From IMG/VR virus record IMGVR_UViG_3300009165_000014, positions 1 to 36,253 of that record: 36,253 nucleotides of DNA. One strand, given 5' to 3'. The notes under the pieces are model-generated. The model saw only the letters and a program-made list of their open reading frames with translations. It did no database searches and was not told the origin of the DNA. This DNA comes from a virus. Positions within the stretch are counted from its first letter, which is position 1. Each line of letters begins with the position of its first letter. Below are positions 1 to 33,505 of the stretch, piece by piece. The translations under genes were made by a program, and so were the position numbers.

Positions 1-162
1 AAACCTGAAGCACTTCCTAAGGCAACTAAGTCTGCTGAACCTGCGGGCGCATTGGTTCGTACCAAGGCACCTAAACCAACTTTTAAACCAGAGGCACTTC
101 CTAAGGCAACTAAGTCTGCTGAACCAGCGGGCGCATTGGTTCGTACCAAGGCACCTAAACCA
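1..162 (+). repeat. 84-bp tandem repeat (two visible copies)
   Basis: Bases 1-78 and 85-162 are nearly identical, differing at a few third codon positions (for example cct/cca and gaa/gag). The period is 84 bases, or 28 codons, so the reading frame is kept. The first copy is at the window edge, so more copies may lie upstream. Confidence 0.85.
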
Positions 163-804
163 ACCTCAAAGACATCTACTTCTGGAGGTGGGAAACCATC
201 TAAAGGTAGTGGTTTGACACAAACTGTTCGTGCTACTTTATCACCTGCAGAAAAAACTGGAAATATGAAGTATCCAGGTTTGGAAAAATATGCAACAGGA
301 TCATCTTCTTCTGGTGGTCCGTCAAAATCTCCAATTTCTGCTTTATCTAGAAATCTAAAAACTGCAGGAATTGTTGGTGCAGCAGCTGCTGGAACCGCAG
401 CAGTTGATCAAGGATTGAAGGGTGAAAAGCGTAAACGTGATGCTGAATTGAGAAAGAACATAAAAACTAATGTTTATAATACTATGGATAAACCATCTAT
501 GGATAAACCAACAGGACAAATTCGCAGTCGTTTAAAAGTTGGTTCTCGTAAGATTGGTTCTACTTTTGATGATGCTTTCAGAGAGGCAAGAAGAAAAGAA
601 AAGGAAGCAAAGAGAATTGGGGATCCAGTTCAAACAACATTTACTTATGCTGGTAAAAAATATACTACGCAAATGGCAAAGGAGCAATTTGTTTGCAATT
701 ATCTCCTTGATGAAGGATTTGCATCAGATGAAAAATCTGCAGAAGGTATCATGAATGCTATGAGTGAACAGTGGATTCAAAACATTATTGAACAAGAGGT
801 TTGA
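1..804 (+). CDS. Ala/Lys/Pro-rich virion-type protein, 5'-truncated
   Basis: The reading frame is open from base 1, so the true start lies outside the window and the TTG at 52 need not be used. The visible part begins with two copies of a 28-residue Lys/Pro/Ala repeat, followed by Ser/Gly-rich linker, a short Ala/Gly hydrophobic stretch (GIVGAAAAGTAAV) and a charged region. It ends with a module that starts near AKEQFVCNYLLDEG and finishes MSEQWIQNIIEQEV. Related modules (DEG-a/h-...-IM..MSE.W...I.E) end the protein at 27396 and occur in the protein at 29853, so this is probably another member of that virion-type set. The function is unknown. A structural or internal head role is inferred from composition and the shared module only. 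Confidence 0.75.
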   Translation, partial: KPEALPKATKSAEPAGALVRTKAPKPTFKPEALPKATKSAEPAGALVRTKAPKPTSKTSTSGGGKPSKGSGLTQTVRATLSPAEKTGNMKYPGLEKYATGSSSSGGPSKSPISALSRNLKTAGIVGAAAAGTAAVDQGLKGEKRKRDAELRKNIKTNVYNTMDKPSMDKPTGQIRSRLKVGSRKIGSTFDDAFREARRKEKEAKRIGDPVQTTFTYAGKKYTTQMAKEQFVCNYLLDEGFASDEKSAEGIMNAMSEQWIQNIIEQEV

Positions 805-18094: not shown

Positions 18095-18167
18095 GGGGAA
18101 TTAGCACAGTTGGTAGTGCGCCTGATTTGCATTCAGGAGGTCAGGAGTTCGAATCTCCTATTCTCCA
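18095..18167 (+). tRNA. tRNA-Ala (anticodon UGC)
   Basis: 73 bases. Acceptor GGGGAAT pairs with ATTCTCC (one G-T). D stem is GCAC/GTGC, anticodon stem CCTGA/TCAGG with loop TTTGCAT (anticodon TGC), and T stem AGGAG/CTCCT with loop TTCGAAT. The discriminator is A and CCA is not encoded. It reads GCA codons, which are frequent in the Ala-rich late proteins of this window. Confidence 0.95.
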
Positions 18168-18172
18168 TTTAC

Positions 18173-18245
18173 GCCCGTGTACTCCAACGGTAGAGAGGGT
18201 GGACTTAGAATCCATACAGTGGAAGTTCGAATCTTCTCACGGGCA
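18173..18245 (+). tRNA. tRNA with anticodon UAG (Leu by anticodon), class I shape
   Basis: 73 bases, five bases after tRNA-Ala. Acceptor GCCCGTG/CACGGGC is perfect. Anticodon stem is GTGGA/TCCAT with loop CTTAGAA, anticodon TAG, which reads CUA Leu. T stem is GGAAG/CTTCT with loop TTCGAAT. The variable loop is only five bases (ACAGT), unlike bacterial tRNA-Leu, which has a long variable arm. The D stem is weak (about 3 pairs). The amino acid identity is therefore less sure than the fold. Confidence 0.85.
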
Positions 18246-18253
18246 TTGAATAA

Positions 18254-18312: not shown

Positions 18313-19653
18313 ATGAAAACATTTCCTCAATTTATAAATGAAGCAACCTCAGCTTCGGTTCAAGCAAAACGTCTTGGACTTGTTGGCGATGGGCATGGGG
18401 GGTGGTATAATAGGGCGACAGGCGAATTTGAAGCCAAGACCATGGGACAAGAATTGAAGTATTTCAACAAAAGACAGGTTATTGGGGGCAGGGATCCAAA
18501 GCAGAGTGAATTTGAGAAGAATATTCCTTTAGGATCTTCGGCACCGGCACCTGTCGCTCCTGCTGTTGCTCCTCCTCCCCAAGAATCTATCCCTGTAGAT
18601 CAGCAAGCAATGGGTCAAGAACCTGTTGCTCAGGAACCAGTAGTAACTCCGCCTCCCGTGCCTAAAACCAAGGGAACTATTACAATTGCTTTTGGTCGTT
18701 TTAATCCACCAACTATTGGACATCAACAATTGATGGACACTGCCGCTATGGCAGCAATGGAAGACGGTGGTGATTATATTATCGTGCCTTCACGTAGTCA
18801 GGATAAAAAGAAAAATCCCTTGGATCCTGATACTAAAATCTCATTTATGAGAAAAATGTTTCCAGATCATAGTGAAAGAATTGTTAATGATGTAAATTAT
18901 AGAACTATTTTTGATGTCCTCAAAAAAGCGCATAATGATGGATACACTAATGTAAGAATTATTGGTGGTGCTGACAGGGTTAAAGAATTTGAAAAACTTT
19001 CAAATAATTACAATGGGCAGTTATATCAATTTGATGTAATCGAAGTATTATCATCTGGAGATCGAGATCCTGATGGAAATGGTGTTGAAGGAGTATCTGC
19101 ATCTAGACTTAGACTTGCTGCAGCAGAAGGAGACTTCATGACTTTCCGTGCCTCTCTACCAAAAGGAGTTAGAAATAAGCAGGCACTCGAACTTTTTGAT
19201 TTAGTTCGTCAGGGAATGGGTATACAAGAAATACAGCAGGAAGGATATAACCTTTGGGAAATTGCTCCTAAGTTTGATCAGCAATCTTTAAGAGAAAATT
19301 ATATTGATGAAAATATTTTTAAAGTTGGAAGTTTTGTTGAAAATTTAAATACTGGATTAAATGGCAGAATTATTCGTAGAGGTACTAATTACTTAATTTG
19401 TGTAACTGAAAATGGGATGATGTTCAAGTCTTGGATTAAAGATGTTAGGGAGTCTTACTCTGAAAAAACGATGTCAAGGATTTCAAGACTTCCTGGAAAA
19501 CCAAATACTTTAATAGGAACTCTTGGTTATTTTAAGTATGCTGCAAAAATGACTCCTGGAGCAGTTGGAACTGGATCTGAAAATCTTCAAGTCGGTGGAA
19601 TACCATATGGTATTAATTTGATAAATAAAAATAGGAAAAAAGTAAAACGTTAA
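18313..19653 (+). CDS. Nucleotidyltransferase with a capsid-targeting-like N-terminus
   Basis: 446 residues. The start MKTFPQFINEA closely resembles the T4 capsid-targeting sequence MKTYQEFIAEA of internal proteins, and INE-A fits the T4 prohead-protease consensus (L/I-x-E, then A/G). Residues about 75-118 are a Pro/Gln-rich linker. A cytidylyltransferase-like fold begins at 120: ITIAFGRFNPPTIGH (HxGH-like, TIGH at 134-137), RIIGGADRVKEFEKL, and VSASRLR (261-267, the ISxxxxR-like motif). Residues about 330-380 look like a small SH3/KOW-type domain (GLNGRIIRRGTNYLI). Likely an adenylyl- or cytidylyltransferase packaged in the head and injected; the packaging is inferred. Confidence 0.8.
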   Translation: MKTFPQFINEATSASVQAKRLGLVGDGHGGWYNRATGEFEAKTMGQELKYFNKRQVIGGRDPKQSEFEKNIPLGSSAPAPVAPAVAPPPQESIPVDQQAMGQEPVAQEPVVTPPPVPKTKGTITIAFGRFNPPTIGHQQLMDTAAMAAMEDGGDYIIVPSRSQDKKKNPLDPDTKISFMRKMFPDHSERIVNDVNYRTIFDVLKKAHNDGYTNVRIIGGADRVKEFEKLSNNYNGQLYQFDVIEVLSSGDRDPDGNGVEGVSASRLRLAAAEGDFMTFRASLPKGVRNKQALELFDLVRQGMGIQEIQQEGYNLWEIAPKFDQQSLRENYIDENIFKVGSFVENLNTGLNGRIIRRGTNYLICVTENGMMFKSWIKDVRESYSEKTMSRISRLPGKPNTLIGTLGYFKYAAKMTPGAVGTGSENLQVGGIPYGINLINKNRKKVKR

Positions 19654-27342: not shown

Positions 27343-27364
27343 GGGTCTTTGAACCCTCTTTTTT
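27341..27364 (+). terminator. Rho-independent terminator fused to a late promoter
   Basis: GAGGGT (27341-27346) pairs with ACCCTC (27353-27358), followed by six T (27359-27364). It ends the nrd operon; the final T starts TATAAATA. Confidence 0.9.
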
Positions 27365-27371
27365 ATAAATA
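27364..27371 (+). promoter_or_regulatory. T4-type late promoter
   Basis: TATAAATA, 24 bases before the ATG at 27396, sharing its first T with the terminator T-tract. Confidence 0.8.
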
Positions 27372-27395: not shown

Positions 27396-28370
27396 ATGTC
27401 TAGAATTACGGGAACTGATGCTTTCAATATGATGGAAGCATATAACGCTGTTTATGCTCCACAAGAACTTACAGAAGAGCAAGTTCAAGAAGACTTTGAA
27501 AACTGGGTAGATTCCCTTGTAGAAGAGGGTCATGACCTGAGTGAGTATACTTGGGAAGATATGTATGAAGAGTATCTTAATGAGATGGGGCAGAGAGCAA
27601 CCACTGGGCAAATGACTGCGCCCCGTAATGCTCCACAAACATCAGCAAAACCAGCACCGTCACAAGCAACTCGTCCTGCCGGTGGTGGTATGGGAGGATT
27701 GCGAGGTAGTGGAAGAGATAGAACTTCATATCAAACTAGTTCTTCTCCTGGAGCACTCAGAGTAAATCCATCTTCTGCACCATATCAATCTCGTTTTGCA
27801 GGTGCTCGTGATGCTGCTTTTAATAGAGCAAGACAAATTCAAGGTTCTCCCGTAGTTGGACCAAGAGTTGCAGCACCAGCAGCAAGACCTGCAGCGCAAG
27901 CACCAGCAGCAGCACCTACAAGACCTGTTGCACCAACTTCACCAAAACCATCTCCAACAACTACAACTGCTCCCGCAACCGCTCCCGCAACCGCTCCAGC
28001 AGCACCTGCGAGAACTTTTAATCCTTTAATGCAGAGAACCTTTGGTTATCAGAGTGGATATGCTCCAAGTCAAGTTAAGCAAGATCCTAAAAAGATGGCA
28101 CAAATGGGATCATTGAGAAGTATTAGTTCTTCATTTGACCCATTTGATATTGTTCAAGGATATCTGATTGATGAAGGTTATGCTGATACTGAAGAGGCAG
28201 CAGCAGTTATCATGGCAAACATGAGTGAAGAATGGAAAACGCAGATTCTTGAGTCTGGTTACTTTCCAACGAAAGAATCTCAAAAAGAAGATGAAAAAAA
28301 GTATAAAATGGGTGGTTCATCTGTAAAGCACAGAAATATTGCAACCCAATCACCAAAACCATCTAGATAA
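27396..28370 (+). CDS. Virion-type modular protein, 324 aa
   Basis: Residues 27-64 hold module B (EEQ...NWVDSLVEEGHDLSEYTWEDMY), also found at the C-terminus of the protein at 29853. Residues about 65-240 are low-complexity Ala/Pro/Thr/Gly sequence with a 12-base ACC/GCT/CCC/GCA repeat. Residues 247-286 hold module A (FDIVQGYLIDEGYADTEEAA...MANMSEEWKTQILE), related to the C-termini at 804 and to 419-460 of the protein at 29853. The preceding perfect late promoter argues for a virion or internal head protein. The function of the modules is unknown. Confidence 0.75.
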   Translation: MSRITGTDAFNMMEAYNAVYAPQELTEEQVQEDFENWVDSLVEEGHDLSEYTWEDMYEEYLNEMGQRATTGQMTAPRNAPQTSAKPAPSQATRPAGGGMGGLRGSGRDRTSYQTSSSPGALRVNPSSAPYQSRFAGARDAAFNRARQIQGSPVVGPRVAAPAARPAAQAPAAAPTRPVAPTSPKPSPTTTTAPATAPATAPAAPARTFNPLMQRTFGYQSGYAPSQVKQDPKKMAQMGSLRSISSSFDPFDIVQGYLIDEGYADTEEAAAVIMANMSEEWKTQILESGYFPTKESQKEDEKKYKMGGSSVKHRNIATQSPKPSR

Positions 28371-28394
28371 TTAATAAAAATAAACTTTTTAAAG

Positions 28395-28420
28395 GAGGGT
28401 CTAACCAACCCTCTTTTTTT
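28395..28420 (+). terminator. Rho-independent terminator fused to a late promoter
   Basis: GAGGGT (28395-28400) pairs with ACCCTC (28408-28413), followed by seven T (28414-28420). The last T is the first base of TATAAATA. Confidence 0.9.
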
Positions 28421-28427
28421 ATAAATA
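28420..28427 (+). promoter_or_regulatory. T4-type late promoter
   Basis: TATAAATA, 20 bases before the ATG at 28448, continuous with the terminator T-tract. Confidence 0.8.
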
Positions 28428-28447
28428 ACTAAAAAAGTAGAAAGAAG

Positions 28448-29809
28448 ATGAAGTCTTTTAGTCAATTTTTGGAAGAATCATATTTGAATGAAGGTGTAGC
28501 ACCTAGTGAAAGGAGACCAGCAAGAAAAAGAAGAAGTGGTGGACCTACTCCAGAAGAAGTGAAGGCAGGTATTGATAAAAGAGAAGCAGAACAAGCAGCA
28601 AAAAAAGCACAAAGAAAACCATCCGGTGCTGCTGCTAGATCAGATCTTCAATTTAAATCAACGAAAGTTCAGAGTCCAACAACTCCAAAAAAACCATCTG
28701 GTGCTGCTCGTGATGTCTGGAAGCAATTTCCCGGAAAAGCACAGAAACAATATGGTCTTCCAAAAGAAGGACCATCAACTCGTCTTCCCGGAAGAACACT
28801 AGAACCTGCAGGCGGAACAACTCCAAAACCTTCTTTACCTGGATCTGGACAAACGCAAAGAGGCGGTCAATTAGCAATAAGACCAACAACATCAAGTCAA
28901 TTGGCAACAAGACCAACATCAACTTCAACAATTACTAAACCACAAAAACCTGTTGAAGTTAAAGATGTAACTAATCAAAGAAGGGCGGCCGCCGATATTA
29001 AAGCAAGAAGAGCAGCTGCTGGAACTGGACCAAGTGGAAAATCAATTGTAACTCCTCCACCAGCGTCTTCTGGAGCAAAACAGTTACCTGCAGGTACTTC
29101 TGGAGGAAAACCACCTTCTGGACCAAAAATCAAAGTACCATCAGGACTTGCAAAAGCAGGCAAAGTTGCTGGTAAAATTCTTGGACCTGCTGCCGCTGCA
29201 CTTGACGTTGCAGATGAAAAGGCAAAAGGATCTGGGTGGGCAAGATCGCTCGCTAAGGGTGCTGCAGTCGCTGCTGGTGGTGCTTTAGGTGGTGCTGCAG
29301 GTAGTATTGCTGGTCCAGTTGGATCAATTGGTGGAGCAACAGTAGGATCGATGGCAGCATCTAAAGCATTTGATGTTGCTGCTGGTGCTAATGCTAAAGA
29401 AAGAAAAGCGATGGCAACAGCAAATCGTCAAAAGCAATCGGGAACTGCTATTAAAGGTATTGGTGGTCCTACCAGTTTTGACACCAAAAAGAATACAATG
29501 ACTACTGGTTCTGGATCACAAAGAAAAACAGTTGCTCTTGCCAAAACTGGTGTTGTTCAGCGTGGTGGACAATCTGTTGCAGGTAATCTTGCATATAAGG
29601 GTGGTAAAGCAGTCTATAAAGCAGGTCCAAGTGCTCAATCCCTTGCCAAAACTTCTTCTAACCCATTAGAAAGAATTGGTAGATCTTTATTTGCCGGCGC
29701 ATACAAACAGCATGATGCCGCTAAAGCAAAACAGGCACTATCAAAAGCAAGACAATCTGATGCTGCTCGCAATAAAGCACTTGGAGTAAAAGCACTTCCT
29801 GGTAAGTGA
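28448..29809 (+). CDS. Capsid-targeted-like glycine-zipper protein, 453 aa
   Basis: Starts MKSFSQFLEESYLNEG, similar to the T4 capsid-targeting sequence MKTYQEFIAE and with two prohead-protease-like sites, LEE-S and LNE-G. It is then Lys/Pro/Ser/Ala-rich (residues about 20-255) with many basic residues. Residues about 260-315 are a Gly/Ala hydrophobic stretch with G-x3-G spacing (AAVAAGGALGGAAGSIAG), a glycine zipper that can insert in membranes. The end is basic. It could be an injected head protein that helps DNA cross the cell envelope; that is inference. It has its own late promoter. Confidence 0.72.
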   Translation: MKSFSQFLEESYLNEGVAPSERRPARKRRSGGPTPEEVKAGIDKREAEQAAKKAQRKPSGAAARSDLQFKSTKVQSPTTPKKPSGAARDVWKQFPGKAQKQYGLPKEGPSTRLPGRTLEPAGGTTPKPSLPGSGQTQRGGQLAIRPTTSSQLATRPTSTSTITKPQKPVEVKDVTNQRRAAADIKARRAAAGTGPSGKSIVTPPPASSGAKQLPAGTSGGKPPSGPKIKVPSGLAKAGKVAGKILGPAAAALDVADEKAKGSGWARSLAKGAAVAAGGALGGAAGSIAGPVGSIGGATVGSMAASKAFDVAAGANAKERKAMATANRQKQSGTAIKGIGGPTSFDTKKNTMTTGSGSQRKTVALAKTGVVQRGGQSVAGNLAYKGGKAVYKAGPSAQSLAKTSSNPLERIGRSLFAGAYKQHDAAKAKQALSKARQSDAARNKALGVKALPGK

Positions 29810-29814
29810 TTTTT

Positions 29815-29822
29815 TATAAATA
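29815..29822 (+). promoter_or_regulatory. T4-type late promoter
   Basis: TATAAATA, 30 bases before the ATG at 29853, starting six bases after the previous stop. No hairpin precedes it here, so read-through from the gene before is expected. Confidence 0.7.
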
Positions 29823-29852
29823 TCTTTATATAAAGGTATTTAATTTATAACC

Positions 29853-31361
29853 ATGTCTAGAATTTCGCAAGACTTCATTAATAATATTGGATATTTGTAT
29901 GAAGAAATTAATATTCAGCAAAATGATTTTTTAAATGAAGACTCTCAATATTATGATGCGGAAGCAGCAGAAATAGTAGAGGATATTCTTTCTACTATTT
30001 CTGCATCGATGGTTTGTGAAGGATATAGTGCAGAAGGCATTATTGGATTTCTTGCAGATTCATCAGAAGAAACAATTATTGAGAAGTATTTAAGTTTTGA
30101 TGAAAATATTCTGTTGGAAGGTAAAGTATCTGATGAATATGTTGTAGAACAATTAGATATTTTTGATGCTGCAATTAATGAGGGTTTGGGATCATTAGTT
30201 GGAAAAGTTGCTAAAGGTGCAGTTGGATTAGCAAGTAGAGTTGCATCAAAACCTGCAAGAGCAAAGATTGCTCAAAAATTAGTAACTTCTAAAAATCCAG
30301 AAAAAACAAGACAAGCAGCACAAAGACTTGCTCAAAGAGAAGCAAGAAAAGGAGGTGCTGGTGGTTATAGTAAGACCAGTTCACCAATTGATGGTGGAAA
30401 ACCAATGACTGGTAAGCAGTCTGGAGAATTATTAACTAAAGGAAAATTGGGTCAAGCAACACAAAAAGTAAAAGATGTTGCTAATAAAGCAAAAGCAGCA
30501 CTTCCTAAAGTTGCTAAAGGTGCTGGTATATTTGGATTAGGTGCTGCTGGTGGATTTGTAGGAGCAAAACTTGCAGGAGCAGGTTCTGGAGCAAAACCAA
30601 CAGAATCACCAAAACCATCTGCAACAACTACTACTGCTCCTCCTAGTGCCCCCTCTGCACCTAGTTCTTCTGCACCATCAGGTGGTGGAGGATCTGCATC
30701 ATCAGGTGGTGGTGGAGGATCTGCACCATCAGGTGCTCCTGCAGCAGCAAAACCAAAAGCATCTGTAAAAAACGCCAATCAACAATATAAAGATTTGATC
30801 AAAGCGGGTAAAACAAAAGAAGCAGAAAAACTAGGATTAGAAACTTGGGCAAAAGCAAATCCAAAACTTGCTGCTAAATTGAATGCAGATAGTGCTCAAA
30901 AGGGTACTGGTCAAAGTCAGATGGAAAAAGATGCTGAAGAACTTCGTCAAATGTCAAATAGGTCTAAGCAGCGTCAAGGTGAATTGATGGGTGGTCCAGA
31001 AGGTCCTGGATCAATTAATAAGAAGGATGTTGAAGATTCAATGAAGGCAGAACAGGAAAGACAGAAGAAAAAACTAGAGCAAGAAAAATCTAAGGTTACT
31101 ACTAAAGAATCATATGAACCATATGAAGTTCTTCTGGAGTATCTTCTGAGTAATGGTCATGCAGATAGTATTGAAGAAGCACATTATATTATGTTAGAAA
31201 TGGATGCATCTTCTGTTCAAGCAGTTATGGAAGAGTATGAGGATTATCTACTTGCTGAAGAGGTTTCTGAGTGGGTTGATGGTCTTTTACATGAAGGATA
31301 TGATCTCTCGCAATATACATGGGATGATGTTGTTGCACATTATGTAACTGAATTCCGTTGA
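29853..31361 (+). CDS. Virion-type modular protein, 502 aa
   Basis: Starts MSRISQDFINNIGYLYEEIN. The N-terminal 120 residues are acidic and include LLEG and INEG, which fit the prohead-protease consensus. A Gly zipper (GAGIFGLGAAGGFVGAKLAG, about 223-242) leads to a Ser/Pro/Gly low-complexity tract (about 247-300). A Lys/Gln/Glu-rich region follows. Residues 419-460 form module A (LLEYLLSNGHADSIEEA...IMLEM) and 468-502 form module B (SEWVDGLLHEGYDLSQYTW). Modules A and B are each shared with the protein at 27396, in a different order. Likely an internal or head-associated protein; the function is unknown. Confidence 0.75.
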   Translation: MSRISQDFINNIGYLYEEINIQQNDFLNEDSQYYDAEAAEIVEDILSTISASMVCEGYSAEGIIGFLADSSEETIIEKYLSFDENILLEGKVSDEYVVEQLDIFDAAINEGLGSLVGKVAKGAVGLASRVASKPARAKIAQKLVTSKNPEKTRQAAQRLAQREARKGGAGGYSKTSSPIDGGKPMTGKQSGELLTKGKLGQATQKVKDVANKAKAALPKVAKGAGIFGLGAAGGFVGAKLAGAGSGAKPTESPKPSATTTTAPPSAPSAPSSSAPSGGGGSASSGGGGGSAPSGAPAAAKPKASVKNANQQYKDLIKAGKTKEAEKLGLETWAKANPKLAAKLNADSAQKGTGQSQMEKDAEELRQMSNRSKQRQGELMGGPEGPGSINKKDVEDSMKAEQERQKKKLEQEKSKVTTKESYEPYEVLLEYLLSNGHADSIEEAHYIMLEMDASSVQAVMEEYEDYLLAEEVSEWVDGLLHEGYDLSQYTWDDVVAHYVTEFR

Positions 31362-31917: not shown

Positions 31918-32071
31918 CTGGGCAATTGATCGGATGCATTTCCTATGTGAAAATAAAAATATCGAAGATGCCCATGCGATTCAATCTGAATTCAGTGAAT
32001 GGTTGGATCCGAATATTCTAGAGCATGACGTATTTTCATTACAATACATAGGAGAAGAATATGACTCTTGA
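31880..32071 (+). CDS. Small acidic protein, 63 aa
   Basis: Starts inside the nuclease gene (38-base overlap, other frame) and overlaps the next gene by 11 bases. It reads METLEKTLKQSHDWAIDRMH, then CENKNIEDAHAIQSEFSEWL and a Tyr/Glu-rich end. It is mostly helical, with no family recognised. The reading frame and coupling on both sides support it as real. Confidence 0.6.
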   Translation: METLEKTLKQSHDWAIDRMHFLCENKNIEDAHAIQSEFSEWLDPNILEHDVFSLQYIGEEYDS

Positions 32072-32732
32072 TCTTCATAACTTTTTTAAATTTTATGATG
32101 AGAAAAATGAGAACCATGTAGCAGCAGTTCAATGGTTAGAAGACAATCTGCCTGCTGAATTTTTAGACGACTCTGAGACTGAATGGATTGGTATTTACAG
32201 AACAAAACCACCAACTCCAGCAGTACTCGAAGTTCCATACTTCAATCAAGTAGACAACTACAGAGACGCACAAAGAACTTGTAACAGTTCGTCGTGTGCT
32301 ATGTGCCTTGCTTTCCTCAAGCCAGGTAGCATTAAAGGCGATGACGAATACGTTAAAAAAGTATTTGCTATCGGTGATACTACTGACCATGCGGTACAGA
32401 CGAAAGTTCTGTCAGGTTATGGGATTAAATCCCATTTCAGTTATAATCTCAGTTTTAGCGATATAGATAAAAGTCTTGATAGGGGTAAACCAGTTGTTAT
32501 TGGTATCCTTCATAGGGGTTCTTTATCTGCACCTACTGGTGGACACATGTGTGTAGTCATCGGTAAGACACCAGATGGTAAAGGATACTATGTCAACGAT
32601 CCATATGGATCATTAAATGATAATTATACTGGTCCTGTGACTAACGGTAAAAAGACAATTTATACCAAAGCAGTTCTTAAGCACCGTTGGTGTCCAGGAG
32701 GAAGTGATGGATGGGGAAGAATTTTCGACTAA
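32061..32732 (+). CDS. C39-like cysteine peptidase with N-terminal shared domain
   Basis: 223 residues; GGAG precedes the ATG. Residues 1-48 (DLHNFFKFYDE...AVQWLEDNLP...W.GIYR) form a domain shared with the endolysin at 32831. The catalytic part is of C39-like/papain type: Q-x..TCNSSSCAM (C74), GGHMCVVIG (H163) and VNDPYG (N180 or D181). Peptidases with this fold act on peptides or cell-wall peptide crosslinks. The shared domain suggests that both proteins bind the same target or go to the same place. No signal peptide is visible. Confidence 0.78.
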   Translation: MTLDLHNFFKFYDEKNENHVAAVQWLEDNLPAEFLDDSETEWIGIYRTKPPTPAVLEVPYFNQVDNYRDAQRTCNSSSCAMCLAFLKPGSIKGDDEYVKKVFAIGDTTDHAVQTKVLSGYGIKSHFSYNLSFSDIDKSLDRGKPVVIGILHRGSLSAPTGGHMCVVIGKTPDGKGYYVNDPYGSLNDNYTGPVTNGKKTIYTKAVLKHRWCPGGSDGWGRIFD

Positions 32733-32844
32733 TTTCAAAAGAAAGATCTTACAACGCATTAAAGATCTGACCAATAATGGTAGACATGTAGAAGCACATC
32801 AACTTTATCAAAAATACTTCGGAGGTAACAATGGCAAGAGTTGA
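32707..32844 (+). CDS. Small basic protein, 45 aa, nested between two enzymes
   Basis: Starts inside the C39-like gene (26-base overlap) and ends inside the endolysin (14-base overlap). It reads MDGEEFSTNFKRKILQRIKD then LTNNGRHVEAHQLYQKYFGG and NNGKS, so it is helical and basic. The GGAGG that serves the endolysin start lies within it. No family is recognised; moderate confidence that it is translated. Confidence 0.5.
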   Translation: MDGEEFSTNFKRKILQRIKDLTNNGRHVEAHQLYQKYFGGNNGKS

Positions 32845-33505
32845 CCTACACAATTTCTTTCAATTCTATGATGAAAGAAACCCTAATCACGTTAAATCAG
32901 TTCAGTGGTTGGAAGACAATCTTCCTGTTAAGTTCCTTGAAGACAATGTAGACTGGGCAGAAATTTATCGCGGAAAAAAGACTAGTGCTGCAACAGTAAG
33001 TACACCTGCTGCAGCTGCGCCTACAGTAACAGGTGGAGATGATCTGCCAATGATTGGTTTGAAATTAATCAAAGAGTTTGAAGGGTGCCATTTAAAAGCA
33101 TATCCCGATCCTCTTACTGGTGGACTTCCGATCACAATTGGTTGGGGTTCAACTCGTAAGAAGGATGGATCTCATTTTAAACTAGGAGATACTTTAACTC
33201 AAGCGGAAGCAGATGCACTTCTCATCGAGCAGTGTAAGAATGAGTTTCTGCCTTCTCTTCGTAAAATCCCACACTGGAATGAAATGTCTGATGGAAAAAG
33301 AGGCGCTCTGCTCAGCTTTGCTTATAATCTTGGTGCCGGTTTTTACGGTGGTGATAACTTTAATACTATTACTAAACGCTTGAAGAATAAAGAATGGGAC
33401 ATGGTTCCCGATGCGCTTTATCTTTACAGAAATCCTGGTTCTAATGTAGAAGCAGGACTAGCACGTAGAAGAAAGGCAGAAGGTGAAGCTTGGAAAAAAA
33501 GTTAA
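32831..33505 (+). CDS. Endolysin, GH24 lysozyme, with shared N-terminal domain
   Basis: 224 residues, with GGAGG seven bases upstream of the ATG. Residues 1-48 match the N-terminal domain of the C39-like peptidase (DLHNFFQFYDERN...VQWLEDNLP). An Ala/Thr/Pro linker (50-68) is followed by a T4-lysozyme-type domain: LIKEFEGCHLKAYPDP with E84 and D93 as catalytic candidates, then TIGWG and the ALLSFAYNLG motif. It cleaves peptidoglycan glycan strands. No signal peptide is seen, so release would need a holin. Confidence 0.9.
   Translation: MARVDLHNFFQFYDERNPNHVKSVQWLEDNLPVKFLEDNVDWAEIYRGKKTSAATVSTPAAAAPTVTGGDDLPMIGLKLIKEFEGCHLKAYPDPLTGGLPITIGWGSTRKKDGSHFKLGDTLTQAEADALLIEQCKNEFLPSLRKIPHWNEMSDGKRGALLSFAYNLGAGFYGGDNFNTITKRLKNKEWDMVPDALYLYRNPGSNVEAGLARRRKAEGEAWKKS

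Follow-up and report, generated by a model that had tools for sequence, protein, structure and literature searches.

Exchangeable acidic modules on basic late proteins of cyanomyoviruses suggest removable tags for import into the virus head

Known head-packaged proteins and the locus under study

The internal proteins IPI-IPIII of phage T4 are late, basic and non-conserved; their N-terminal targeting peptide is removable, and they have an L/I-x-E site for gp21, the prohead protease, which cleaves after this triad (PMC9026906). In the capsid-targeting sequence (CTS) of IPIII, targeting is governed by positions 4 and 7, and processing by positions 8 and 10 (PMC9026906). Propeptides at both termini, also removed by gp21, are known from T4 Alt (PMC9026906). 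In a different phage group, the giant phage SPN3US packages many proteins in its head, and a prohead protease cuts their propeptides. In a literature search, the terms “capsid targeting sequence” and “cyanophage” occurred together only in a T4 review.

We analysed a stretch of 36,253 bases (the window), which is the whole IMG/VR virus record IMGVR_UViG_3300009165_000014 and is collinear with the Synechococcus phage S-SRM01, a member of the Kyanoviridae, at ~145-183 kb of the latter. In the window, a peptidase and a MoxR/CobS-like region are followed by replication genes, a cytidyltransferase, nrdA and nrdB, then by the genes starting at 27396, 28448 and 29853, and after these by lysis-type genes. 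The proteins at 27396 and 29853, together with the first gene of the window, contain one or both of two short modules, A and B (Table 1), and proteins of this kind are called carriers hereafter. Our results suggest that A and B are removable tags, which bring DNA-binding-like proteins into the virus head during assembly. The carriers would be like IPI-IPIII in the features given above; unlike them, they have folded modules of 30-40 residues, which vary in order and in many cases lie internally or at the C-terminus, and another N-terminal tag (N-tag), while 28448 and 18313 in the window fit the CTS register of IPI-IPIII. Carriers with modules at both ends would, by analogy, be processed like Alt, which is however an enzyme. 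The propeptides of SPN3US would be used as proposed here, but no A/B-like module is found in phage records outside cyanophages. At the start of the window (1-160), the record edge truncates the first gene, which contains a ~28-residue tandem repeat (KPEALPKATKSAEPAGALVRTKAPKPT), and two apparent tRNA genes (18095-18250, by eye) lie immediately 5' of the cytidyltransferase.

Table 1. Positions of the window features (numbering of the 36,253-base record)
Feature	Position	Strand	Remarks
Module A, first gene (267 residues, ending at 804)	residues 230-264, 688..792	+	FVCNYLLDEGFASDEKSAEGIMNAMSEQWIQNIIE; C-terminal, ends I-I-E; HMM 1.7e-14
Capsid-targeting-like start of cytidyltransferase	18313..18342	+	MKTFPQFINE
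Late promoter TATAAATA of 27396	27364..27371	+	24 nt 5' of ATG at 27396
Carrier 1	27396..28370	+	N-tag, module B, basic region (+19, residues 67-245), module A, basic tail
N-terminal tag of carrier 1	27396..27470	+	MSRITGTDAFNMMEAYNAVYAPQEL
Module B, carrier 1	residues 26-63, 27471..27584	+	ends L-N-E; HMM 8.4e-21
Module A, carrier 1	residues 246-286, 28131..28253	+	ends I-L-E; HMM 1.7e-23
Late promoter TATAAATA of 28448	28420..28427	+	20 nt 5' of ATG at 28448
Companion basic protein, 453 aa	28448..29809	+	without A or B; T4-like capsid-targeting N-terminus
Capsid-targeting-like start of 28448	28448..28477	+	MKSFSQFLEE
Late promoter TATAAATA of 29853	29815..29822	+	30 nt 5' of ATG at 29853
Carrier 2	29853..31361	+	N-tag, acidic module C, gp21-like site, basic glycine-rich region (+30), A-B tandem (-20)
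Module C, carrier 2	~residues 36-80, 29958..30092	+	contains SMVCEGYSAEGIIGFLADSSEETIIEKYL; three helices predicted, block pLDDT ~80-89; from alignment
Putative gp21 site, carrier 2	30174..30182	+	I108-N-E110/G111-LGSLVGK (slash, cut), at acidic-to-basic junction
Module A, carrier 2	residues 420-460, 31110..31232	+	HMM 2.7e-18; three confident helices predicted
Module B, carrier 2	residues 463-500, 31239..31352	+	ends V-T-E, immediately follows A; HMM 1.2e-17

Modules A and B, their spread and predicted fold

When the 27396 copy of A is used as a single-sequence query against the 36-kb record, the A copies of the first gene and of 29853 are recovered at E=5e-7 and 8e-5, respectively. Profiles built from the window copies alone (three of A and two of B) and run over 7,766 ORFs converged immediately, with 98 A and 82 B matches and no reversed-sequence decoy at E<1. 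The first-pass annotation, whose module positions agree to a few residues with the HMM boundaries, had named chance similarity of acidic helices as the explanation that would undo the modules; since profiles seeded in the window connect the copies in this way and the decoys are clean, that explanation falls. Order and position differ between the copies, as had been noticed: B precedes A in 27396, an A-B tandem closes 29853, and A stands alone in the first gene. Two features had gone unmentioned, namely the T4 capsid-targeting-like peptide opening the gene in between (28448) and the N-terminal acidic domain of 29853, with the three-helix module C. The hhalign probability is 28 over 11 columns between A and B, which were thus rejected as copies of one module, 11 between A and C, and 56 between B and C; on these values, the three are treated as separate modules.

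Four IMG/VR scans, taken with the other genomes analysed, gave 268 carrier ORFs on cyanomyovirus (Kyanoviridae) contigs, in six architectures: A (117), BA (72), AB (63), AA (10), B (4) and BAA (2). Once the modules are masked, the carriers fall into 37 groups without a match to one another, one of them large and joined via low-complexity sequence, the others small and in some cases fragments. Because the groups are mutually unmatched, we conclude that the modules move between unrelated proteins. The earlier idea of shuffled docking or targeting domains on several proteins is therefore well supported as to shuffling; docking or targeting would be the best-supported function of the modules, as judged from sequence. 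Co-occurrence singles out no common partner, the carriers being confined to cyanomyoviruses with shared T4-like head genes.

In S-SRM01, four proteins have one A copy each, and S-CRM01 has four A carriers, arranged as two gene pairs. Matches among annotated phage records are found only in Synechococcus and Prochlorococcus phages and in marine single-virus genomes. A cellular origin of the modules was rejected, a pattern-based scan of 84,980 cellular species (one genome each), which distant relatives could escape, having found no relative. The four window proteins have no match in Pfam, and pieces of the window carriers match the PHROG families 3708, 27516 and 22522 (function unknown), which are whole-protein clusters where the mobile modules are not separated. 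The S-SRM01 homologue of 29853 (L001:32711-34309) has a strongly basic tail after module B (KYGTAKGRKKLAKKV...KKGAGFEAIVDKASGKYGKKRATKIAAAAMWKN), which the window copy lacks.

Structure prediction, which the first-pass annotation had proposed, returned a helical A-B tandem (helices at 9-19, 26-35, 38-66 and 76-87 of the model; mean pLDDT 87) and, in the N-terminal domain of 29853, the third three-helix module, C. PDB sequence and fold searches gave weak matches only, none of them convincing (Foldseek best E 4.1; VIA Z up to 4.2 against one RNA polymerase beta' region; all weak and tied), and the repeated RNA polymerase beta' match, with Z ~4, was set aside as chance helix packing. The good matches among predicted viral structures are cyanophage proteins. 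A and B are predicted to be folded micro-domains, and they are conserved above the needs of a propeptide, as would be expected if the modules were interaction domains that ejected or virion proteins keep permanently, acting after injection by, for example, binding host targets or holding carriers together. The glycine-rich stretches may also be likened to membrane-active segments of ejection proteins. Nevertheless, the module ends are protease-type triads, the junction sites are conserved (see below), and the modules are placed at either end or internally, as a removable or generic tag would be; we consider permanent domains unlikely.

Carrier anatomy, protease-type sites and late promoters

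The A/B carriers make up one class, with a near-constant N-tag, acidic modules and a basic remainder. The N-tag is of the type L-x-E-A-Y-x-x-V-Y (examples are SRITGxDAxxLMEAYxAVYAPQE, DIxxLYESIY and DFINNxGYLYEEIN), and a strict regular expression finds it in 103/235 carriers versus 2/1078 other ORFs; carriers without the standard tag exist, e.g. S-SRM01 943 and S-SZBM1_194. The mean charge is -0.25 per residue in the modules and +0.083 in the remainder, which is rich in Ala, Gly, Pro and Lys. Negative modules with a positive remainder are found in 152/152 de-duplicated carriers, while 31% of the controls are positive. In the window, the net charges of successive segments are -17/+19/-9/+5 in 27396, -23/+30/-20 in 29853 and +28/-7 in the first gene. 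The linkers had earlier been described as low-complexity, which undersold them: the remainder is consistently basic and often starts at a prohead-protease-like site.

This charge pattern bears on the idea that the carriers are scaffold or core components, substituting for T4 gp67 and gp68 and largely degraded in maturation. Cyanophages reportedly lack both proteins (PMC2984593), acidic helices that carry L/I-x-E sites are like those of core proteins, and degradation would account for the absence of carriers, e.g. S-SZBM1_194, from mass spectrometry (MS) tables. However, the carriers are mostly basic and have few cleavage sites, unlike an acidic scaffold, and their copy number and order vary freely among phages, with none in S-CREM2, which would be odd for an essential core. 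The T4 core scaffold type (gp22/gp67/gp68) was rejected on the uniformly basic remainder and on the lack of enrichment of the bare L/I-x-E triad there, and we regard the scaffold or core role in general as distinctly unlikely.

Module A ends in I-x-E (I in 54/58 copies, E in 40/58) and module B in [LV]-[TN]-E (E in 21/24). Among E-A and E-G dipeptides outside modules and N-termini, 23/35 of those with L or I two residues before lie at an acidic-to-basic switch versus 11/157 of those without (p=3e-13; carriers are related, and the site counts are not independent). In 18 homologues of 29853, E110 of INE/GLGS is invariant, while the preceding spacing varies by up to 4 residues. With modules and N-termini masked, the bare L/I-x-E triad shows no enrichment, with 123 occurrences versus 119.6 expected, and a general excess was accordingly dismissed; L/I-x-E-[AG] shows a modest excess under stricter masking (31 versus 20.5), control motifs outside modules (D for E, other spacings) show no enrichment, and only the junction-linked form with A or G after E stands out. 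By these motifs, the carriers appear to have L/I-x-E at the end of a propeptide, as gp21-processed head proteins do.

The resemblance to gp21 sites can also be read as incidental to acidic helices whose last residue is E, with the modules being late regulatory or host-takeover domains that are not connected with the virion. L/I-x-E is indeed common in acidic helices and unenriched outside the modules, and no carrier has been directly detected in virions in the published S-CREM2 and S-SZBM1 tables. On the other hand, L/I-x-E-[AG] is enriched when the control motifs are not, the charge switch goes together with L/I at -2, and carriers have late promoters and neighbours with capsid-targeting-type starts. 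This role outside the virion is, in our judgement, very improbable.

The T4 late promoter in S-PM2 is NATAAATA (PMC2984593). In our set, the T4-type late promoter sequence TATAAATA lies at most 70 nt upstream of 142/189 carriers, mostly 19-31 nt before the start, versus 68/364 control ORFs, many of the positive controls being themselves capsid-targeting-type proteins; promoter and site counts alike are inflated by homology between carrier loci, as they are not independent.

On balance, we lean towards A, B and C being propeptide-type docking or sorting modules of late internal head proteins, cut off by gp21. From the sharing of modules, the anatomy, the site and promoter statistics and the predicted fold, we infer packaging, cleavage, a docking partner and a role for the released protein as follows. 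Carriers would be synthesized late in infection, and their N-tag and acidic modules would dock on the prohead core or on the inner prohead surface, so that the carrier is drawn inside. Then, gp21 would cleave the L/I-x-E sites at module ends and acidic-to-basic junctions, and the released basic, low-complexity or glycine-rich protein would stay by or on the packaged DNA, and may be injected. The logic would be that of the T4 internal proteins, but with interchangeable folded modules, terminal or internal, and the neighbouring gene 28448 would use a classical 10-residue capsid-targeting peptide in parallel.

Capsid-targeting-type starts and virion proteomes

The start of 28448 has aromatic residues at positions 4 and 7, L at 8 and E at 10, and fits the four key T4 positions, pointing to a CTS-type N-terminus as in T4 internal head proteins. 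Its predicted mature protein is basic (net charge +55 over residues 17-453) and, by its promoter (Table 1), probably expressed late. Relatives of the cytidyltransferase, whose start is similar, have been found in cyanophage virions (PMC10665884, PMC9146016). In S-CREM2, all five proteins annotated with a capsid-targeting-type start (gp6 SAM hydrolase, gp13, gp14 kinase, gp136 and gp154 cytidylyltransferase) are virion-detected (5/5; P=6e-4, with 52 of 219 proteins detected), and in S-SZBM1 1/3 is in the MS table; the regular expression for these starts was drawn up after some examples were known. T4-type targeting peptides on the virion-borne SAM hydrolase, kinase and cytidylyltransferase, with a comparable peptide inside a Cas9-like protein, would give a direct reason for the presence of these enzymes in purified virions, which the proteome papers left open.

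A/B carriers and CTS proteins are nearly disjoint sets. Only two carriers match the CTS pattern, both with an MSNLSHYIIED start that resembles the carriers' own N-tag, and carriers were thus rejected as classical CTS proteins. Without the classical 10-residue CTS, they would work like the T4 internal proteins but are strictly outside that family.

No A/B carrier is listed in the published virion MS tables; the richest proteome is that of S-CREM2, which encodes no A or B, and S-SZBM1 has one B carrier only, S-SZBM1_194, which is absent from the S-SZBM1 table. Among virion-detected proteins, only S-CREM2 gp111 (8 unique peptides) is related to a carrier; it has a 32-residue segment 94% identical to an A-type carrier, a similar N-tag (NRFD...EA start) and a KPDxLDxDxDG segment; gp111 has neither A nor B, and the segments it has in common with carriers are other ones.

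We tentatively propose, at somewhat less than even chances, that cyanomyoviruses possess a second, modular head-import system, in which exchangeable folded acidic A/B/C modules, at either end of the cargo or inside it and clipped by gp21, act in parallel to the short T4-type peptide and load a large, fast-changing set of basic proteins. If true, this would give a role to a large number of hypothetical proteins in a virus family of very high abundance and provide cyanophage counterparts of the missing T4 internal and core proteins. Cargo that is probably injected into cyanobacteria could then also be searched for by its signature, which combines the N-tag, A/B/C, L/I-x-E with A or G after it, and TATAAATA.

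Several other shared segments were observed. Cytidyltransferases, kinases and a Cas9-like protein (window 18313-19653; S-CREM2 gp12 and gp14; S-CRM01 L099:1511-3976 and L099:704-1276) have in common, after their capsid-targeting-like peptide, a second module, A-x-RLGL-xx-DGHGGWY...TG...A.T or a variant with GFGYW, which suggests that peptide and module form a two-part portable tag on virion-borne enzymes. S-SZBM1_194 (L095:23255-25387) is a 707-residue basic protein encoded between two terminase subunits; besides module B, it has an internal near-perfect T4 targeting peptide, ITYREFIAEG, then a domain also found after the targeting peptide of the S-CREM2 SAM hydrolase, and resembles several cargo units fused together. 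In the virion-detected S-CREM2 gp160 (L091:28342-29235), GATGFTGAAAPEGPVAGYDPLM closely resembles GADGFTGAAAPGGPNAGFDPVM, which in the major capsid protein comes after the likely gp21 site. Finally, in the window, the C39-type peptidase (32061-32732) and the adjoining lysis-type protein (32831-33505) have in common an N-terminal domain of ~57 residues with 58% identity (DLHNFF.FYDE.N.NHV..VQWLEDNLP), a further case of neighbouring genes with a shared module.
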